64,000 nt of DNA from Flavobacterium crassostreae (GTDB taxonomy: Bacteria > Bacteroidota > Bacteroidia > Flavobacteriales > Flavobacteriaceae). Where the stretch lies: positions 1-64,000 of the forward strand of contig NZ_CP017688.1 in the NCBI RefSeq assembly GCF_001831475.1, given 5' to 3'. Of the stretch, positions 50,486 through 58,595 are shown in pieces. The stretch's first letter is position 1; each line of letters begins with the position of its first letter. Both the position numbers and the translations under genes were made by a program. The notes under the pieces were generated by a model that was not told the DNA's origin, made no database searches, and was given only the letters and a program-made list of their open reading frames with translations.

Positions 50486-52435
50486 TTAATTTAAGAAGTT
50501 CCAGACTAATCCAAAACGAATCATAAAATCATGGTATGGTTGGTTCGGGCTTGCATAAAAATTATTGCCGGTCAAGGAGGAGTTAAAATGTTCTGCTTTT
50601 AGGTAAATTCTGGTTCTTTGGATTTTTGCGTTGATAAAAAAATCTAAATTGGGGTAGTTGCCTATTTCTTTTTTATTTTGAACAAAAAACTCTCCTAGAA
50701 TGGGGTTGTATGCGTTGGCTTGGTACTTGGTGAAGTAGTTTAGGGTAACTCCGGTTTGAAAAAACAAGGCTTTATCAAAAAGATAATCCGTGTAGTAAAG
50801 GGTGTTTCGGGTGACTAATTGGGGTACATTTAGTATGGCTTGTGGTTGGGTTACTTTTTGATACAAAAGGGTGTTGTCTAATGCTAGTTTTCCAAAAGTA
50901 AAGGCTTTGCTTGCTTTTATGCTAAGGTAGTTGATGGTGTTTTGGTATTGTTGGGGGGTTATTATTTGTTGGCTGGCATTGGTGGCGGTATTTGTAAAAT
51001 ACAAGTGGTCTTTTAGGGTTTTTAACTGTACTGTGGCGCTAACCCAGGCTGTGGTGGCATCTAGGGTTAGGGCGTTTATTTTTTCGGGGCTGAAGTCTTT
51101 GGACCAGTTGTAGCCTAGGTAGCTGCTTTGGTGCAAAATATAGTTGTCATTGGCCAGCTTATGGGTGTTTTGGTAGTGTAGCTTAAAGTGGTTTTGGGTG
51201 TCTAAATCGTATTGCAAAACGGCCTCTAGATTGGACATGGATTGTTTTGTCAGGGATTTTGAATACAAAATTTTGCTGGCCCATTGGTGTTTTTTGTAAT
51301 CGTATTGTGTGCCTAGATTGTAGAGGTTTCTGTTCAAGGAGGCGGGTATGGTTTGTTGGTTTTTTATCAGAATTTGGTAATAGTAGTAGTTGCTCGTAAA
51401 ATGGTCTGCAAAAAGTTGCAGGCTACCCAAAGTGCGGTTTTGGTAGGTCAGTCCGGCTTTGTTGTACATTTTGTTATAATGGGTCTGGTCGTTGATGCCG
51501 CTATTGGTATAGGTGTCTCCAAAACGGTATACGGTGGTGGTTCCTACCTTGGATGCAACATTGGCTTGGTTGAACTCAAAAAATTTGTTTTCATAATTAA
51601 ACTGGTGCCCAAGGTAGAGGTTGTTGGCTCCTTTGTTGGCGTTGAGTTGAAAAAAATGATCTATAAATAGGCGTTTGCCTTTTAGAAAAGATTTGGCATC
51701 GGTAAAGTAAACTTGTAATTTTTCTCGGTTAGCATAGGTGGGATCTTTGCTTTCAAAGTCCAAAAGGGTAGTAATGCCACCGTTTTCTTGATTTAAAATA
51801 TCTTGGTAGGTGTAATGTGCATTGGCATAATAACGTTGGTTTAGGGTATTGTAACTTGCGGTAAATCTAAAATTACCGGTACTTGCAAGTTGGTTTATAT
51901 ACCTTCCTTGGGATCGTAACCCTTTGTATGCTATTGAAAGATTAAGCCTTGGATTTAAATTTAGGGTAAAAAAAGCGTCTAAGGACTGCCCTTTTTGCAT
52001 TACGGTTTTAAAGTATAGCTCCGTTAGGGGTGTCGCTACAGAATTGTAGGTTATGTCTTGCGCTTCTAGAAAATTAAAATGCTTGGCTTTGAAACCAAAT
52101 TCTGGATAAGCAGTGGTTTTCTCTAAACCATAGTGTAGGGTATTGTAGGTTTGTCCTTCGTTAGAAAATGCTAACAGACCAAAATTGTCTTTACGCAGAT
52201 AATTAAAACGGTATTCTTTTTGAATGGTCAAAGAAGTATCTAAATAAGTGGTATCGCGTTCGATGTTTATAAAACGGTATTGGTCTATTGTAGGGGTTTT
52301 TGGAGAGGCATTTGGATCTAAAGAAGGTGCATTTGCTTGGCTTTCGGGTTTAGAACTGGATGGTTTTTCTGACACAACCTGAGATAACACAAGTGTCGGA
52401 ATTAGGAGTATATAGATATAAAGAAGGGTTCTCAT
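50486..52435 (-). CDS. Putative outer-membrane porin
   Basis: The protein has 649 residues, with a signal peptide ending near LVLSQ and then a Pro/Ser-rich linker to about residue 48. The rest consists of alternating aromatic beta-strands, many ending in Tyr/Phe, and closes with FMIRFGLVWNFLN, a typical beta-barrel end. It fits the Bacteroidota 'putative porin' family. The substrate is unknown. It is preceded only by a TATCTTTA near-match promoter and is not in an obvious operon. Confidence 0.8.
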   Translation of the reverse strand: MRTLLYIYILLIPTLVLSQVVSEKPSSSKPESQANAPSLDPNASPKTPTIDQYRFINIERDTTYLDTSLTIQKEYRFNYLRKDNFGLLAFSNEGQTYNTLHYGLEKTTAYPEFGFKAKHFNFLEAQDITYNSVATPLTELYFKTVMQKGQSLDAFFTLNLNPRLNLSIAYKGLRSQGRYINQLASTGNFRFTASYNTLNQRYYANAHYTYQDILNQENGGITTLLDFESKDPTYANREKLQVYFTDAKSFLKGKRLFIDHFFQLNANKGANNLYLGHQFNYENKFFEFNQANVASKVGTTTVYRFGDTYTNSGINDQTHYNKMYNKAGLTYQNRTLGSLQLFADHFTSNYYYYQILIKNQQTIPASLNRNLYNLGTQYDYKKHQWASKILYSKSLTKQSMSNLEAVLQYDLDTQNHFKLHYQNTHKLANDNYILHQSSYLGYNWSKDFSPEKINALTLDATTAWVSATVQLKTLKDHLYFTNTATNASQQIITPQQYQNTINYLSIKASKAFTFGKLALDNTLLYQKVTQPQAILNVPQLVTRNTLYYTDYLFDKALFFQTGVTLNYFTKYQANAYNPILGEFFVQNKKEIGNYPNLDFFINAKIQRTRIYLKAEHFNSSLTGNNFYASPNQPYHDFMIRFGLVWNFLN

Positions 52436-52613
52436 TTAGATAAAGATATAATTACAAGCTGTTTTTTAATTACAAATAACCTCCACAAAGGTAAAGGATA
52501 CAAACGTATAAAAAAACAGAATAAATACCCTCAATAAATAATGGCTATCTGCTCTTAAAAATAGAGTACTATTGTAAAAAAATGACAATCTTTGTGGTCT
52601 TAAAACCTTAGCC

Positions 52614-53282
52614 ATGCTCAAAAAAAAGTATTCTTCTTTTGTCTTAGAGGCCGGAGCTGACGAAGCCGGACGCGGTTGCCTTGCGGGTCCAGTAACTGCA
52701 GCAGCGGTAATAATGCCTGCTGATTTTGAAAATACTTATTTAAAGGACAGTAAAAAACTCTCTGAAAAAATACGTCAAAAATTACGACCCATTATTGAAC
52801 AACAGGCTGTATGCTTTGCGGTATCGCATCTGGAACCTTTAGAAATTGACCAAATCAATATCTTAAATGCTTCTATAAAAGCAATGCAAGAAAGTGTGTT
52901 GCAATTGCATCCAAAACCAGAATACGTGATTGTGGATGGCAATAGTGCTTTTATCCAAAAAAAATGGCAGCAAAATAGTTCTGGCAAAATTTTTACCCTT
53001 ACGGAAAAAGAATGGCTTGCTTCTATCCCTAATCAATGCATCATCCAAGGAGATGCTAAATACCAGAGTATTGCAGCGGCTTCGGTGCTTGCAAAAACGT
53101 ATCGGGATGCATATATGGAACGGATTCATGAGGAATTTCCGATGTATAACTGGAAACAAAACAAAGGCTACCCTACCAAAGAACACCGAGAAGCTATCCG
53201 AAAATATGGCGTGACTAAATACCACCGAATGACTTTCAGACTGCTACCCGAACAACTAAAAATAGCTTTTGAGGTGCTCTAA
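52614..53282 (+). CDS. rnhB: Ribonuclease HII
   Basis: Cleaves the RNA strand of RNA/DNA hybrids and initiates ribonucleotide excision. The protein has 222 residues. The conserved [14 protein letters not shown] starts at 14 with Asp16 and Glu17; the other acidic ligands are in [10 protein letters not shown] and in [15 protein letters not shown]. The [17 protein letters not shown] region is typical. Monocistronic, starting about 25 bases after a near-consensus -7 element (AATCTTTG). Confidence 0.96.
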
Positions 53283-53285
53283 AAG

Positions 53286-53324
53286 CAAAAAATCTCCAAA
53301 AACAAAGCCTGTTTTTGGAGATTT
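53286..53324. terminator. Terminator between rnhB and the copper-type operon
   Basis: A 15-bp perfect stem (53290-53304 with 53310-53324) with a 5-base loop. The flanking plus-strand A-run makes it a good terminator for the minus-strand operon; the plus side lacks a long T-run. Confidence 0.88.
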
Positions 53325-53345
53325 AGAAACTGTAGTCTAATGCTA

Positions 53346-54317
53346 TTATAAACTGTAGTTTAAATGGACACTCCAACGGGAATTTGCTTCCATGTTGCCA
53401 TTGGATAAATTTTGACTTAAAGGCAACATGCCATTGAGTCCTAATGAAAATTTGTCTTTGCCAATCTCTAAACCAAATTTGCTAAAAAGTACGTCTCCTG
53501 CTGTATCGTGGACCTTTTGTCCGTGTTGTTTATTGGTTTCATAAACCTCTCCAGCCACTCCAAATTGGGGCACTACTTGTATGTTTTGGGCAGTAAACAA
53601 ATAAAATAGAGTGCTGCTGTAATTTAATTGGTTACCAAACTGGTATTTTTTTTCGTTCTCTGTCTTTAGGTTGTAGTTAACCATGGTATTGAGTCCTAAT
53701 TTTTTCTTTTTGACCACATACTCTGCTAGCAATAGGTAATCCCAACTACCAGTACCTAATTGAAAACTTTGATTAACAGTGCCCCGATTATTTGCCTCAC
53801 TAAATTTTCCGGTTGGCATTTTTAGACCACCACCTATTTGCAGGTTGTGATCCAATAGGGTGCTGTCTTTTTGGGTTTGGTAAACCAAATAGGTTGCCAT
53901 CAGAGTCATATCTCCTAGACCACTAATCTTTTCGGTACCTGCCGTTAAGGCTCTATTATGAAAATGATAAGGAATCAAGGCTGCTACCTTTATTTTGTTA
54001 GTCACCGGAATTTTGCCCCAAATTTGGGTGGTGTTGAAATCTTCGGCAATCCAAGGAGAGTTTGCAAAAATACCGTCTCTGCTAGAATAGCTTTGATTAA
54101 AATAACGTACACCTACAAAATTTTTATTCAACATGGAGCTAAACCCCATACTTCCACCACTTGCAGAACACCCACAAGCATCACAATCCATCCGAAGGGC
54201 CGATTCTAATTGCATTTTTTGAAAGCTAAATCTAAAAATGCTATCCTTGACAACTGCAGCACTAGATATCTGAAAAGACAAAAGAGCAAACAAACATAGT
54301 ATTATTGGGTTTTTCAT
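53346..54317 (-). CDS. Outer-membrane beta-barrel with CDxCGC motif
   Basis: The protein has 323 residues, with a signal peptide to about 20-21 and an early CDACGC motif (Cys45, Cys48, Cys50) followed by a Gly-rich SASGGSMGF. The rest is beta-barrel-like with strands ending in a C-terminal WSVHLNYSL. I recognise related 'transporter'-type barrels with a CDxCGC motif beside MbnP and cytochrome c peroxidase genes in Bacteroidota. It is last in the operon and starts 4 bases after the peroxidase gene. Transport of copper or a metal complex is inferred. Confidence 0.72.
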   Translation of the reverse strand: MKNPIILCLFALLSFQISSAAVVKDSIFRFSFQKMQLESALRMDCDACGCSASGGSMGFSSMLNKNFVGVRYFNQSYSSRDGIFANSPWIAEDFNTTQIWGKIPVTNKIKVAALIPYHFHNRALTAGTEKISGLGDMTLMATYLVYQTQKDSTLLDHNLQIGGGLKMPTGKFSEANNRGTVNQSFQLGTGSWDYLLLAEYVVKKKKLGLNTMVNYNLKTENEKKYQFGNQLNYSSTLFYLFTAQNIQVVPQFGVAGEVYETNKQHGQKVHDTAGDVLFSKFGLEIGKDKFSLGLNGMLPLSQNLSNGNMEANSRWSVHLNYSL

Positions 54318-54321
54318 GGTA

Positions 54322-55365
54322 TTAAAATTCTGAAAATCGTTTATCGGTAAGATATTGATAATCGGTTAAGGTATTTAAAAAAGCGATCAATTGCTCTTTA
54401 TCGGTTTCTGAAAGCGTAATTCCTAATTTTCCGTTTTGTTTTAAAATAGGATCTAAAGTTGCTCCATCTACTACCGCTGTGCTATAATGATTCAGTACTG
54501 AGGCTAAGCTACCAAAACGGCCATCATGCATATAAGGAGCTGTTACTGCCACATTACGCAAACTGGGCACTTTAAATTTGTAGTAATCAGTTGCTTGCTC
54601 CGTTACTCTATAACGTCCTACATCATTGATTAGAGGGTTAATTGCCAAGCCATTGTTTCTAAAAGAATCATCTGTCATTAAATCCGTTGCATGGCATGAG
54701 GCACATTTATTTTTAAAAATAGTATATCCCGCCATTTCTTCCTTGGTAAGGGTTCCTCCGGCTTCATTGCGTCTGTAATGGTCAAATTTAGAATTAGACG
54801 AGGTAAGCATAACCATAAATTGAGACAGCGCCTTGAGCATGTTCTCTATCGAAACAGCACCATCTTTAAAGGAAACTTTAAACAATTCACGGTAGTTTGG
54901 ATCCGCCTTCATCATGGCAAGAATGCGGTTTAGATCGCCATTCATCTCTACGGTGCTGGTCAAAGGAATTATGGGTTGCAAATCCAGATGGCTTGTTGCT
55001 CCGTCATACATATAAATACGTTGGTACGCCATGTTTTGAATTGCTGGAGCATTCCGGATACCTAAAGCATTGTCCACACCATGACTAACAGTATGTCCGT
55101 GGTGAGTAAACGCATTTTCTTGTAGGTGACAAAACCCACACGATACCAATCCATCGGAAGCCAAACGGCCATCATAAAATAATTTTTTGCCCAACTCAAA
55201 CCCTTTTTCAGTTGGAGGATTTGCAGCAATATCGTAAGCCAAATTTGGAAAATTGGATGGCACCGAAAAATCCAACGGCAGGTTTATATACTTAGCGTCT
55301 TGGTCCGAATCTGAGCAATTAATCAATATAGGGAATACTAGCCAAAGAAAATGTTTTATTTTCAT
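54322..55365 (-). CDS. Dihaem cytochrome c peroxidase / MauG-MbnH-like lipoprotein
   Basis: The protein has 347 residues. An N-terminal lipobox (LINC) gives lipid-modified Cys17. Two c-type haem sites are CGFCH (76-80) and CASCH (221-225), and PYMHDGRFGSL near 290 holds a distal ligand region. In the MbnP/MbnH system such an enzyme oxidises a Trp of its partner to kynurenine; peroxide reduction is the other option. The ATG at 55365 gives a good lipobox; the frame to 55389 adds eight residues. It is downstream of the MbnP gene and 4 bases upstream of the barrel gene. Confidence 0.85.
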   Translation of the reverse strand: MKIKHFLWLVFPILINCSDSDQDAKYINLPLDFSVPSNFPNLAYDIAANPPTEKGFELGKKLFYDGRLASDGLVSCGFCHLQENAFTHHGHTVSHGVDNALGIRNAPAIQNMAYQRIYMYDGATSHLDLQPIIPLTSTVEMNGDLNRILAMMKADPNYRELFKVSFKDGAVSIENMLKALSQFMVMLTSSNSKFDHYRRNEAGGTLTKEEMAGYTIFKNKCASCHATDLMTDDSFRNNGLAINPLINDVGRYRVTEQATDYYKFKVPSLRNVAVTAPYMHDGRFGSLASVLNHYSTAVVDGATLDPILKQNGKLGITLSETDKEQLIAFLNTLTDYQYLTDKRFSEF

Positions 55366-55441
55366 GGTTCTAAATTTAAAAAAGAGCACCAGAGTGTTGC
55401 TCCTATCTGGTTAGCACTACTCGGATGCCCCTTAAATGAAA

Positions 55442-56242
55442 TTAATCGTTATGTACGTGGTCTACACTAAACATAGTAGCTACGTTTTGAGTGATTAGAG
55501 GCAGTTTAGCACCTCCCATAATCATTGCGCCAGTTCCATTAGGATTGTTATCGGATAGTTGGATGGTATTGGTGCTGTTTAACACCTTGGCCAAATCTGC
55601 AATAATGTGGATTTGTGGCGTAATAGCCCCGCGTACTAATGCCTTAGATTTTAAATCCAGAGCAACCGTTGTGTAGTTATAATCCGTTCCGGTTTGTCCG
55701 GTATGAATTTTAAAAGGCAGTGGTTGCGCAACGGTTGCAGAAGTAAAGTTTCCTTCAAATGCCACAAATTTATAGCCCGCAGACCAGCTCCACATCATGC
55801 TCGAGGCTTGGGCTTGCGCCAAAAAATCACCTTGTCCGTCTGCACCCAATTTCCATTGTTCTTTGTCTACTCCTATACCAAAACTAACTTTAATGTAGTT
55901 TGCTGCTGGCACATTTTTTAGCGCAATTACATGACTAGCGGCAGTGGCTTCGTCTACAATAAAATAACTTTGATTTTTGGGATACGTAAAGGTAGTTCCA
56001 TCTTCTTTGGTTAGTACCACATTGCTAATTATGTATTTTGCAGTAGTAATTTTAAGAACTTCGTTACTTGCCGTTACATTTGCCTGCGATCCTAGAATCA
56101 AATTATCGCCCTTAAAACTGTTATCAAATTCTAAGGCCAAAGTACCGGTTCCAGAAACAGTTTCTTCCTCTTTTGGAGAACAGGCGGCAAGTGTGGTGCT
56201 CAATACCAAAACAGCAAGAGCTTTATATACTAAATTTTTCAT
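55442..56242 (-). CDS. MbnP-family copper-binding-type lipoprotein
   Basis: The protein has 266 residues with lipobox LAAC and lipid-modified Cys21. The MbnP hallmark is MMWSWSAGYKFVAFEG (149-164) with Trp151 and Trp153 as candidates for oxidation to kynurenine. Potential Cu ligands are His180 in FKIHTG, His212 in PQIHII and His262/His264 in the terminal DHVHND. After Cys21 comes SPKEEE, which resembles the Bacteroidota lipoprotein export signal for surface display. Forms a pair with the MauG-like gene 76 bases downstream. No methanobactin precursor is visible. Confidence 0.85.
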   Translation of the reverse strand: MKNLVYKALAVLVLSTTLAACSPKEEETVSGTGTLALEFDNSFKGDNLILGSQANVTASNEVLKITTAKYIISNVVLTKEDGTTFTYPKNQSYFIVDEATAASHVIALKNVPAANYIKVSFGIGVDKEQWKLGADGQGDFLAQAQASSMMWSWSAGYKFVAFEGNFTSATVAQPLPFKIHTGQTGTDYNYTTVALDLKSKALVRGAITPQIHIIADLAKVLNSTNTIQLSDNNPNGTGAMIMGGAKLPLITQNVATMFSVDHVHND

Positions 56243-56352
56243 TTTTATAATTGGTGTATTTATTTTTTACTAATTTTTTAAAATAAGTTGCGCACAGATA
56301 CCTACCCTTAGGCTTTTGCCAAAGAGAAGTAGACACAACAATAAAAAGAGAA

Positions 56353-56727
56353 TTAAAAAATAAAAAGGGGCGGACGAAAAATACTAGTACTCCTTAAGTG
56401 CGAGTACCAATTAGTGTATCTAGAATTTAGGGTATAATCCTTTTGGTTCTGAAAAAGCAAAAAAGAAAAAGAATCTACATTGGTAATAAAAAGATCTACC
56501 AAAGAGGGTGTATTTTGTTTTTTATTGGATGAAATAGATTTATCTTCCTGGGTTGTTTTTGCCAGTTCTTGCATTAAGTGGCATTTTCCGTTACATTTAA
56601 GTTCTGGTTTTGCTTTATTAATACACAGAACTTGTGAAATATAATCATAATTAACCACGTAATCTACAACCGGAAATAGTGGTTTTAGAAACAAAACTAA
56701 GAGGATTATGACTGCATATTTTTTCAC
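56353..56727 (-). CDS. Small exported Cys-rich protein of the MbnP operon
   Basis: The protein has 124 residues, with a hydrophobic N-terminus (about 3-26) and then C-INKAKPELK-CNGKC-H (Cys35, Cys45, Cys49, His50), a motif I know from small proteins encoded near copper or iron uptake genes in Bacteroidota. The mature chain is otherwise low in recognisable features. The start is GTG at 56727, right behind the -7 element, with no better upstream codon. It is probably the first gene of the operon with MbnP 110 bases downstream. The role, perhaps metal delivery or a chaperone, is inferred. Confidence 0.68.
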   Translation of the reverse strand: MKKYAVIILLVLFLKPLFPVVDYVVNYDYISQVLCINKAKPELKCNGKCHLMQELAKTTQEDKSISSNKKQNTPSLVDLFITNVDSFSFLLFQNQKDYTLNSRYTNWYSHLRSTSIFRPPLFIF

Positions 56728-56731
56728 ACCG

Positions 56732-56739
56732 CAAAGATA
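56732..56739 (-). promoter_or_regulatory. Putative -7 element of the copper-type operon
   Basis: On the minus strand TATCTTTG matches TAnnTTTG exactly and ends 4 bases before the GTG start. No -33 TTTG is visible, and the mRNA may be leaderless. Confidence 0.55.
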
Positions 56740-56852
56740 TAACTCCTTTTTGAATTTTAGCTGATAAATATCATTTTGGTTGTTTTTTTGTTAAGTATTA
56801 AACCTTTGACTAAATTTATAGTCTTACTGTAATAACCTATAAAAAAAGTACC

Positions 56853-57266
56853 ATGAAAAAATTAATTCTTCTTGCATTAATAACGGTTAGTTTAACCGCT
56901 TTTGCGCAAAACAAAAGAGCCATGCATCCAAAAGGGGACGTAGAGCGTTTTACTCCTGAGCAAAAAAACGAAGTACTCCTAAAAAAACTTACCCTCGAAC
57001 TCGATCTGGACTCCAAACAACAACAAGAAATCAAAACCATTCTTGCCGAAAGAAGCACGCAAAGAAATGCCCGAATGCAAAACAAACCAAAGCCTACAGA
57101 CAGACCTACTGCCGAAGAACGATTGGCATCAAAAAACAAAATGTTGGACGAAAAAATTGCTTTGAAAACAAAAATGAAACGCATTTTGTCTCCAGACCAA
57201 TACAATAAATGGGAAGAAAAAAACGAAAGAAACAAAAGAAGAAAACACGATAAAATGTCCCAATAA
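56853..57266 (+). CDS. Spy/CpxP-like exported helical protein
   Basis: The protein has 137 residues. A signal peptide ends near TAFAQ (19). The mature part is very basic and highly charged, with predicted helices FTPEQKNEVLLKKLTLELDLDSKQQQEIKTIL and LSPDQYNKWEEKNERNKRR, reminiscent of the Spy/CpxP periplasmic chaperone and DUF4890-like families. It is divergent from the copper-type operon and shares the intergenic region with it; a functional link to envelope or metal stress is possible but unproven. Confidence 0.72.
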   Translation: MKKLILLALITVSLTAFAQNKRAMHPKGDVERFTPEQKNEVLLKKLTLELDLDSKQQQEIKTILAERSTQRNARMQNKPKPTDRPTAEERLASKNKMLDEKIALKTKMKRILSPDQYNKWEEKNERNKRRKHDKMSQ

Positions 57267-57267
57267 T

Positions 57268-57302
57268 AAAAAACTTCCGGTTTAAAAGCCGGAAGTTTTT
57301 TG
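57268..57302. terminator. Bidirectional terminator between the Spy-like gene and hemL
   Basis: A 12-bp stem AAAAACTTCCGG/CCGGAAGTTTTT (57269-57280 with 57289-57300) with an 8-base loop and a T-run. It ends both convergent transcripts. Confidence 0.92.
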
Positions 57303-57308
57303 TTTATA

Positions 57309-58595
57309 TTAAAAAGTTTTGCTCACTTTGTCTACAGCAGCAATAGTAAAATCTAAATCCTCATACGTAAGCGCATCCGTGATAAACCAAGTCTCGTAAG
57401 CAGACGGCGCTATATAAACTCCTTCTTGCAACAAACCATGAAAGAATTTTTTGAAAGTAGCATTATCACCCTTAGCTGCAGATTGAAAATCTACCACAGG
57501 GTTCGCATCAAAATGTACCGAAATCATAGATCCAATACTATTGGTGGTAAAAACGACCTGGTTGGCGGTAAGCACTTTTTCTATACCTGCGCGTAAATAG
57601 GCTGTTTTTTGAGCTAATCTATCAAAAATAGCCGCATCGTTATTTAAGGTCTGTAACATCGCTAGTCCTGCTGCCATTGCCAATGGATTTCCGGACAAGG
57701 TTCCGGCTTGATACACCGGCCCTAGAGGTGCTAGATAATCCATTATTTCATTACGTGCTGCAAAGGCGCCCACTGGCAAGCCGCCTCCGATTACTTTTCC
57801 AAAACAAACCAAATCTGCTTGGATACCAAATAGTTCTTGCACACCTCCTTTGGCTAACCTAAAACCAGTCATTACCTCATCAAAGATTAGTAAAATTCCG
57901 TGTGCGGTACATAATGTTCTCAAACCTTCTAAAAAATCTTTTTGAGGAGGAATACATCCCATATTTCCGGCTACTGGTTCCAAAATAATAGCCGCAATTT
58001 CGTTTGGATTGGCCTTAATTAATGTTTCAACATTAGTCAAATCATTATACGTAGCAAGTAAAGTATCTTTGGCGGTTCCGGCGGTTACACCAGGACTATT
58101 AGGAGATCCAAAGGTCACGGCGCCACTACCGGCTTGGATCAAAAAAGAATCCGAATGCCCATGGTAGCACCCTGCAAATTTTATTATTTTGTCTCTCTTA
58201 GTATAGCCACGAGCCAAACGTACGGCACTCATACAAGCCTCTGTACCTGAGTTTACAAAACGTATTTTATCTACATTAGGAACCATCTGTACTGCCAAGG
58301 CAGCAATTTGAGTTTCTAACTCCGTAGGCATTCCAAACGACGTTCCTAATTTAGCTTTCTCAATAACAGCTTGTACTACTGGCTCAAAAGCATGACCCAA
58401 AATCATAGGCCCCCATGAATTGATGTAATCTATCAAACGGTTTCCGTCTGCATCATACAAGTAAGCTCCTTTTGCTCGTTCTACAAAAATAGGAGTTCCT
58501 CCTACGGCTTTAAAAGCTCTTACGGGAGAGTTTACTCCTCCTGGTATTACTTTTTCCGCTTCAGCAAAAAGCTGACTACTTCTTTGGTATCGCAT
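57309..58595 (-). CDS. hemL: Glutamate-1-semialdehyde 2,1-aminomutase
   Basis: PLP enzyme that makes 5-aminolevulinate, the first committed haem precursor of the C5 pathway. It has 428 residues, the normal size. Lys267 in CFGKVIGGG is the PLP lysine, and [11 protein letters not shown] contains the PLP-binding Asp. It is last in a run with the GH73 and D-cysteine desulfhydrase-like genes (24-base gap to GH73), although no haem link to them is apparent. Supply of haem is needed for the nearby c-type cytochrome. Confidence 0.96.

Follow-up and report, generated by a model that had tools for sequence, protein, structure and literature searches.

A candidate copper-sensing leader peptide at the head of an MbnP/MbnH operon in Flavobacterium crassostreae

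What is the role of a small cysteine protein encoded directly ahead of an MbnP-like lipoprotein and its di-haem enzyme? The question is raised by a locus in the first 64,000 nucleotides (nt) of contig NZ_CP017688.1 of Flavobacterium crassostreae (the whole stretch is called the window here), part of a 3.03-Mb genome in a single contig, whose closest relatives are Flavobacterium. From 56727 to 53346, on the minus strand, lie in series a gene for a small cysteine (small-Cys) protein, mbnP, an MbnH-like gene and a gene for a barrel protein, separated by 110 nt, by 76 nt if the ATG at 55365 is taken as the MbnH start, and by 4 nt. The best reading of this unit, as judged from its sequence, is a Bacteroidota variant of the nascent-chain type of metal sensor, combined with an MbnPH system that is also a Bacteroidota variant; that is, it is probably a copper-acquisition operon under nascent-chain control, composed of a leader, a kynurenine-type MbnP/MbnH system and a channel. 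Its features are as follows.

56732 to 56739, minus strand: TATCTTTG, 4 nt upstream of the GTG start; its sequence matches TAnnTTTG, taken here as the -7 promoter element of Bacteroidota.
56353 to 56727, minus strand: small-Cys protein of 124 amino acids with GTG start, by family conservation a probable copper-sensing leader peptide (upstream open reading frame, uORF).
56578 to 56625, minus strand: codons of C35-x9-C45-N-G-K-C49-H50, the candidate metal-sensing motif.
56368 to 56379, minus strand: codons of F117-R-P-P120, a candidate motif for arrest, with 4 residues after it.
56243 to 56352, minus strand: the 110-nt gap between leader and mbnP, with a stem-loop (about 56287-56339) predicted by folding against shuffles.
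55442 to 56242, minus strand: MbnP-family lipoprotein (PF20243), 266 amino acids.
55784 to 55792, minus strand: codons of W151-S-W153; W151 is at least 90% conserved and aligned with a Trp of the solved MbnP (7l6g).
54322 to 55389, minus strand: di-haem MbnH/MauG-like enzyme (PF03150; best named model TIGR04039), 355 amino acids from the GTG at 55389.
53346 to 54317, minus strand: predicted outer-membrane beta-barrel of FapF/COG4313 type, from a structure model and Foldseek.
54168 to 54185, minus strand: codons of CDACGC (barrel residues 45-50); all 33 barrels aligned have C45 and C48.

The small-Cys protein has a visibly hydrophobic N-terminus, and scans of the window assigned no Pfam or NCBIfam family to it or to the barrel. 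When 30 diverse members of its family are aligned (down to about 20% identity), only six columns are invariant: C35, C45, G47, C49, P119 and P120. The family motif is C-x(6-9)-C-x-G-x-C with a C-terminal Pro-Pro 61-74 residues away; 27 of the 30 have 9 residues in the first cysteine gap, two have 6 and one has 7. The ending is F[HR]PP in 118 of 120 close relatives, and exactly four residues follow the motif in 115. All 100 members read in the loci retrieved have Pro-Pro near the C-terminus (followed by at most 8 residues in 99 and by 17 in one; 2-5 residues before the stop codon in 95), at 61-73 residues from the last Cys. As a full-length model had been used to retrieve these loci, a second search was made with N-terminal residues, thereby removing selection on the C-terminus. 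In the same loci, a model cut after the Cys motif again gave Pro-Pro within the last 20 residues in 100/100, compared with 21/311 other small open reading frames (ORFs) and 28/1,210 larger ORFs. The first 58 residues of the small protein found the family in 163 of 295 Bacteroidia genomes. A second set of 79 loci (78 in genomes that this search had newly brought in, and one weak place from a search of 247 genomes) contributed 80 members; all 80 have Pro-Pro in the last 20 residues, at a spacing of 62-74, 71 have it 2-5 residues before the stop codon, and 79 have a same-strand gene at most 450 nt downstream. All four Pro codons occur at both Pro-Pro positions and, since these codons vary synonymously, selection acts on the peptide. 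This pattern of conservation fits a nascent-chain regulator. Weak Pfam matches among the 30 diverse proteins (TGF_beta in 5/30 with E down to 0.0036, DAN in 2 with E down to 0.0017, and further families once each) are at chance level and belong to unrelated families.

The company kept by the leader can be followed in two directions, among MbnP loci and away from them. A search with the single MbnP protein of the window yielded 71 named loci, and in 65 of these, mostly from Flavobacterium, the order of small-Cys gene, mbnP, MbnH-like gene and barrel gene is exact, which exceeds chance. Three of the six exceptions (L264, L276, L277) are cut off at contig ends; two Flavobacteriaceae bins (L275, L280) have leader, MbnP and barrel, with no MbnH found between MbnP and barrel; and a distant Bacteroidota bin (L282) has MbnP and MbnH only. 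The gap between MbnP and barrel is about 300 nt in L275 and 12 nt in L280. The order is conserved while the flanks vary: within flanks of up to 4 kb, the genes that border the unit in the window recur unevenly among the 71 loci (rnhB in 3, a divergent LTXXQ gene in 41, a porin in 0). The divergent small gene itself (56853-57266, plus strand) matches LTXXQ weakly (E 0.025) and is near the operon in those 41 loci. More widely, 67 of the 247 Bacteroidota genomes sampled contain PF20243. Around its matches, 80 stretches were taken, with an ORF set that leaves out overlapping frames: an MbnH-like gene is present in 78, a small gene upstream of MbnH in 31 and a barrel near MbnH in 26 (small gene and barrel together in 23, small gene alone in 8, barrel alone in 3). 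By coordinates, 37 of the 86 PF20243 matches over the cut-off have the small gene at most 2 kb upstream on the same strand.

The small-Cys family is found in 103 of the same 247 genomes, compared with 67 for MbnP. In further stretches taken away from MbnP it is present in 59/60, mostly ahead of TonB receptors. The first downstream gene in 57 such loci is a TonB plug gene in 35, a MetA-type barrel gene in 7 and a YtkA gene in 6; among 43 second downstream genes, PepSY_TM occurs 8 times and SCO1 5 times. In both loci scanned with Pfam (L156, L169), SCO1 followed by PCuAC was confirmed, and in L066 SCO1 is near a second leader copy. Five loci (L156, L164, L169, L170, L178) carry, in series, the leader, a His-bearing MetA-type barrel (RPDGHA..VM.DH.H), an SCO1-like and a PCuAC-like protein, in what looks like an operon for copper delivery. 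Tandem or flanking leader copies are seen in L126 (4992-5915), L321 and L063 (7407-7784 and 11300-11677); in L063, one copy is ahead of MbnP and another lies between the barrel and a TonB receptor, directly ahead of the latter. The anatomy of the unit, its conservation and its gene contexts are established. A first-pass annotation of this DNA had listed the four minus-strand ORFs with C-x9-C-x3-C-H, WSW, HVH, CGFCH/CASCH and CDACGC, all of which are present where it placed them, and its expectation that the four-gene order would recur in related genomes was borne out by the 71 loci. It had also made the small-Cys protein a dedicated partner in a metal relay; this is not supported, because the protein also heads TonB-receptor, PepSY_TM, SCO1/PCuAC and YtkA operons and is therefore not dedicated to MbnPH.

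Expression signals add to this picture. TAnnTTTG occurs at most 12 nt before the start in 33 of 101 small-Cys genes (the window's included) versus 27 of 974 other genes (Fisher p 8e-21), and in 18 of the 33 it is exactly 4 nt before the start, as in the window; in the second set, 43 of 80 members have it near the start. Because the element sits directly at many starts, a near-leaderless mRNA is suggested for many small-Cys genes, that of the window among them. These observations bear on another view of the small-Cys protein, namely that it functions in the periplasm as a metallochaperone or donor and is expressed together with MbnP, Pro-Pro serving for docking or stability. An exported-looking N-terminus, a Cys/His motif and a frequent position beside copper genes would suit such a protein. 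However, no column is invariant between the Cys motif and Pro-Pro, Pro-Pro holds its distance both to the stop codon and to the Cys motif, the protein serves operons other than that of MbnP, and promoter-like elements lie right at the start of its gene, so that a metallochaperone appears unlikely.

If the small gene is a leader, what does it lead to? The MbnP-like protein of the window matches PF20243 with 154.5 bits (cut-off 27), but scores 38.7 bits against TIGR04052, the MbnP-like WxW equivalog, which is under the cut-off of 140. It has the fold of the solved MbnP, 7l6g, which was reached by a profile search (E 3.2e-5) and was not convincing in a single-protein search (E 1); Foldseek and VIA matches ranking under 7l6g were treated as background. 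Its motifs are MMW151-S-W153 and a C-terminal HVHND. The MbnH-like enzyme matches PF03150 with 163.3 bits and carries the haem motifs CGFCH and CASCH, both CxxCH motifs being invariant in 88/88 MbnH-type sequences longer than 280 residues. Its best named model is TIGR04039 (“MbnH family”), although its 213.3 bits are under the cut-off of 362.85, and its best solved relative is 6e1c, “Di-heme enzyme” (146.7 bits). The ATG at 55365 is its likelier start (347 amino acids), with a possible lipobox behind it. The alignment column of residue 128, which we take to be that of the inter-haem Trp of MauG/CcP in position and role, holds W in 65, R in 10, Y in 7, A in 4 and F in 2 of the 88 relatives. The window enzyme and six relatives from its own genus have Tyr there (Phe in L057), and L055, L078, L079 and L080, also of this genus, retain Trp. 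Both MbnP (CSPKEEE) and MbnH (CSDSDQD) are lipoprotein-like, with acidic residues close behind the lipid Cys, a stretch that resembles the Bacteroidota surface-export signal. Two consecutive MbnH-like di-haem proteins, rather than one, are present in the MbnP loci L056, L083, L086, L092, L097, L102 and L103.

The MbnP and MbnH/MauG identities proposed in the first-pass annotation are upheld by these families and the fold. The likeness to MbnP/MbnH of Methylosinus trichosporium, MopE/SACCP and CorA/CorB lies in the pairing of a copper-binding-type partner with a di-haem MauG-like enzyme, in the MbnP fold and in WxW; unlike these systems, the window has no methanobactin gene within its four-gene unit, both NCBIfam cut-offs are missed and Tyr replaces the Trp of most relatives. 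The annotation's idea of a methanobactin-independent variant is supported in that the pair stands outside methanobactin loci, but was not new, as conservation of the MbnPH pair far beyond methanobactin producers is described in the available part of Kenney and Rosenzweig 2013 (PMC3621798).

The last gene of the unit encodes the predicted barrel. Its model has a confidence (pLDDT) of 79.0, and the best Foldseek matches in the PDB are 5o67 (FapF; E 1.3e-11, query TM-score, TMq, 0.61) and 4rl8 (COG4313 channel; TMq 0.60), whose fold it would share; unlike these channels it has an N-terminal CDxC and adjoins MbnPH or the leader, and FapF is titled an amyloid secretion protein. The CDACGC stretch is poorly ordered in the model (pLDDT < 50). 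No Pfam family matches the barrel over its cut-off, the single match at E <= 1 being DUF6645 (0.25). Phenol_MetA_deg (PF13557) does not match it at E <= 1, but does match barrels behind the leader at other loci (e.g. L131, L159); related barrels also lie directly behind the small gene where there is no MbnP match (e.g. L146, L167, L182). From its nearness to MbnH in 26 of the 80 MbnP stretches, the barrel is a plausible partner of the MbnPH system.

The gap between leader and mbnP is where control might be exerted. In the window it folds with z -2.33 (6/200 shuffles fold equally well), and over 66 gaps, that of the window included, the mean z is -3.1. An RNAalifold consensus of 13 intergenic gaps retained just an apex stem of three pairs, two of which vary on both sides; as the outer stem of the single folds was not recovered there, no conserved outer stem is claimed. 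Rfam gave no match within 52400-57400 at gathering scores. The genome encodes rho (626 bits). The proposed mechanism would proceed as follows. Translation of a near-leaderless mRNA would feed the leader into the Sec channel. Under copper scarcity, the ribosome would stall at F[HRK]PP, close to the stop codon, and the stall would prevent termination or sequestration in the gap (by Rho or the predicted stem-loop), so that mbnP, mbnH and the barrel gene are expressed. The ribosome tunnel holds 30-40 nascent residues, to which the Sec channel adds. The Cys motif, 61-74 residues upstream, would thereby be placed at about the periplasmic exit of the translocon, where copper bound to it would release the stall and turn the operon off. 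By oxidation, MbnH would turn a Trp of the MbnP WxW into kynurenine so that copper can be bound, and the barrel would admit or pass on the metal or a metal complex.

Repression by copper is the favoured direction because the downstream genes are mostly of uptake type and because CorA and MopE are copper-repressed, according to the accessible part of PMC3912023. The opposite direction would follow if the leader acted like CutF of Rhodobacter capsulatus: copper would strengthen the stall and open a stem-loop over the next start, inducing the operon for detoxification or for copper storage by MbnP. The stem-loop in the gap would suit this, and CutF operates in the copper-induced direction in the sections of PMC9973294 available. 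However, the downstream genes are mostly of acquisition type, with TonB receptors, and the repression of CorA and MopE (PMC3912023, in part) speaks against it as well; we consider CutF-like action improbable. In length, Pro-Pro position and distance to the next gene, the window leader falls within the CutF-like rules as given in the same sections, with 124 amino acids (<150), Pro-Pro 4 residues from the end (last 15) and mbnP 110 nt downstream on the same strand (<=1,000). The class also has a Sec signal peptide, for which the hydrophobic N-terminus of the leader is a candidate. CutF-like proteins were gathered there in bulk in 2023 (list D: 5,334, 19% Bacteroidota), and the small-Cys family may be among them; in sections 10-12, MbnPH goes unmentioned and no single member from Bacteroidota is given individual attention.

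The leader-controlled reading can also be compared with CruR of Bordetella pertussis (bp2923), described in the accessible part of PMC9426467 as a DUF2946 (PF11162) leader with CXXC and a C-terminal RAPP. There, proteobacterial CruR operons hold genes for a TonB-dependent transporter, PepSY_TM, ScoC and PCuAC, and MbnPH-like genes; arrest of CruR is demonstrated in vitro in the part of PMC12992588 available. As with CruR, a small exported-type ORF comes first in copper operons, has a Cys motif and Pro-Pro near its stop, and keeps much the same partners, including MbnPH-like genes. The Bacteroidota leader differs in having C-x(6-9)-C-x-G-x-C rather than CXXC, mostly F[HRK]PP (FRPP in the window) rather than RAPP, a spacing of 61-74 rather than 45 and, often, a near-leaderless mRNA. 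It also lacks a PF11162 match: homology to DUF2946 was looked for and not found, the family not being among those that match any of the 30 small-Cys proteins at E <= 10, nor present in the window's own genome. In the available part of the RAPP/RGPP survey (PMC12992588), copper-related uORFs with these motifs are reported as lacking in some groups such as Bacteroidota, and the TonB-related class as universal in Gram-negative bacteria. The small-Cys leaders share with the surveyed uORFs a link to metal and a C-terminal Pro-Pro motif, for which arrest is only a candidate role in Bacteroidota. Because RAPP or RGPP is found in 0 of the 100 C-terminal motifs counted, a search for these would miss the family.

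Several points weigh against nascent-chain control. Arrest, copper binding and the direction of control are inferred from sequence. Two of the 120 close relatives are without Pro-Pro and have a different, longer tail, and the residues before Pro-Pro vary (FHPP 39, FRPP 16, DHPP 10, SPPP 8, others, of 100). Gaps after leaders have a mean z of -2.4 (n=53) and other same-strand gaps -1.8 (n=192; p 0.006), the comparison being weak outside MbnP loci (p 0.055, n=35); because the other gaps average so low, gap structure serves as supporting evidence only. Not every context is plainly one of copper, since an AraC regulator and a methyltransferase are among the 57 first downstream genes. Because 49 of the 86 PF20243 matches lack the small leader within the stated distance and strand, it is not required for MbnPH as such. 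The window enzyme has Tyr128 in place of the inter-haem Trp. Finally, release could differ from that of CruR, because there is no DUF2946 match, the motif is mostly F[HRK]PP and the distance is about 66 residues. That the four genes are conserved neighbours without regulatory coupling, of which only MbnP and MbnH matter while leader and barrel are bystanders, agrees with the 44 of 80 MbnP stretches with MbnH and neither of the others (in the ORF set used), but is very improbable given the order kept in the 65 loci and the same leader heading other copper genes.

Copper control in Bacteroidota is little described in the literature searched (bioRxiv, supplements and most subscription papers lay outside it), and a function is proposed here for an unnamed family. 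We incline, if slightly, to the broader view that the small-Cys proteins form a phylum-wide Bacteroidota class of metal sensors of the nascent-chain kind, without detectable relationship to DUF2946, in which an F[HRK]PP-type arrest and a Cys motif about 66 residues away would sample periplasmic copper at the translocon exit, often from near-leaderless mRNA, governing TonB receptors, MbnPH with its channel, and Sco/PCuAC delivery. If true, the family in 103 of the 247 genomes would be the counterpart of the copper leaders reported, in the part of PMC12992588 available, as lacking in Bacteroidota. It would represent a second solution to co-translational metal sensing, with another arrest motif and another sensor distance, and MbnP/MbnH chemistry would be placed under a defined switch outside methanotrophs.

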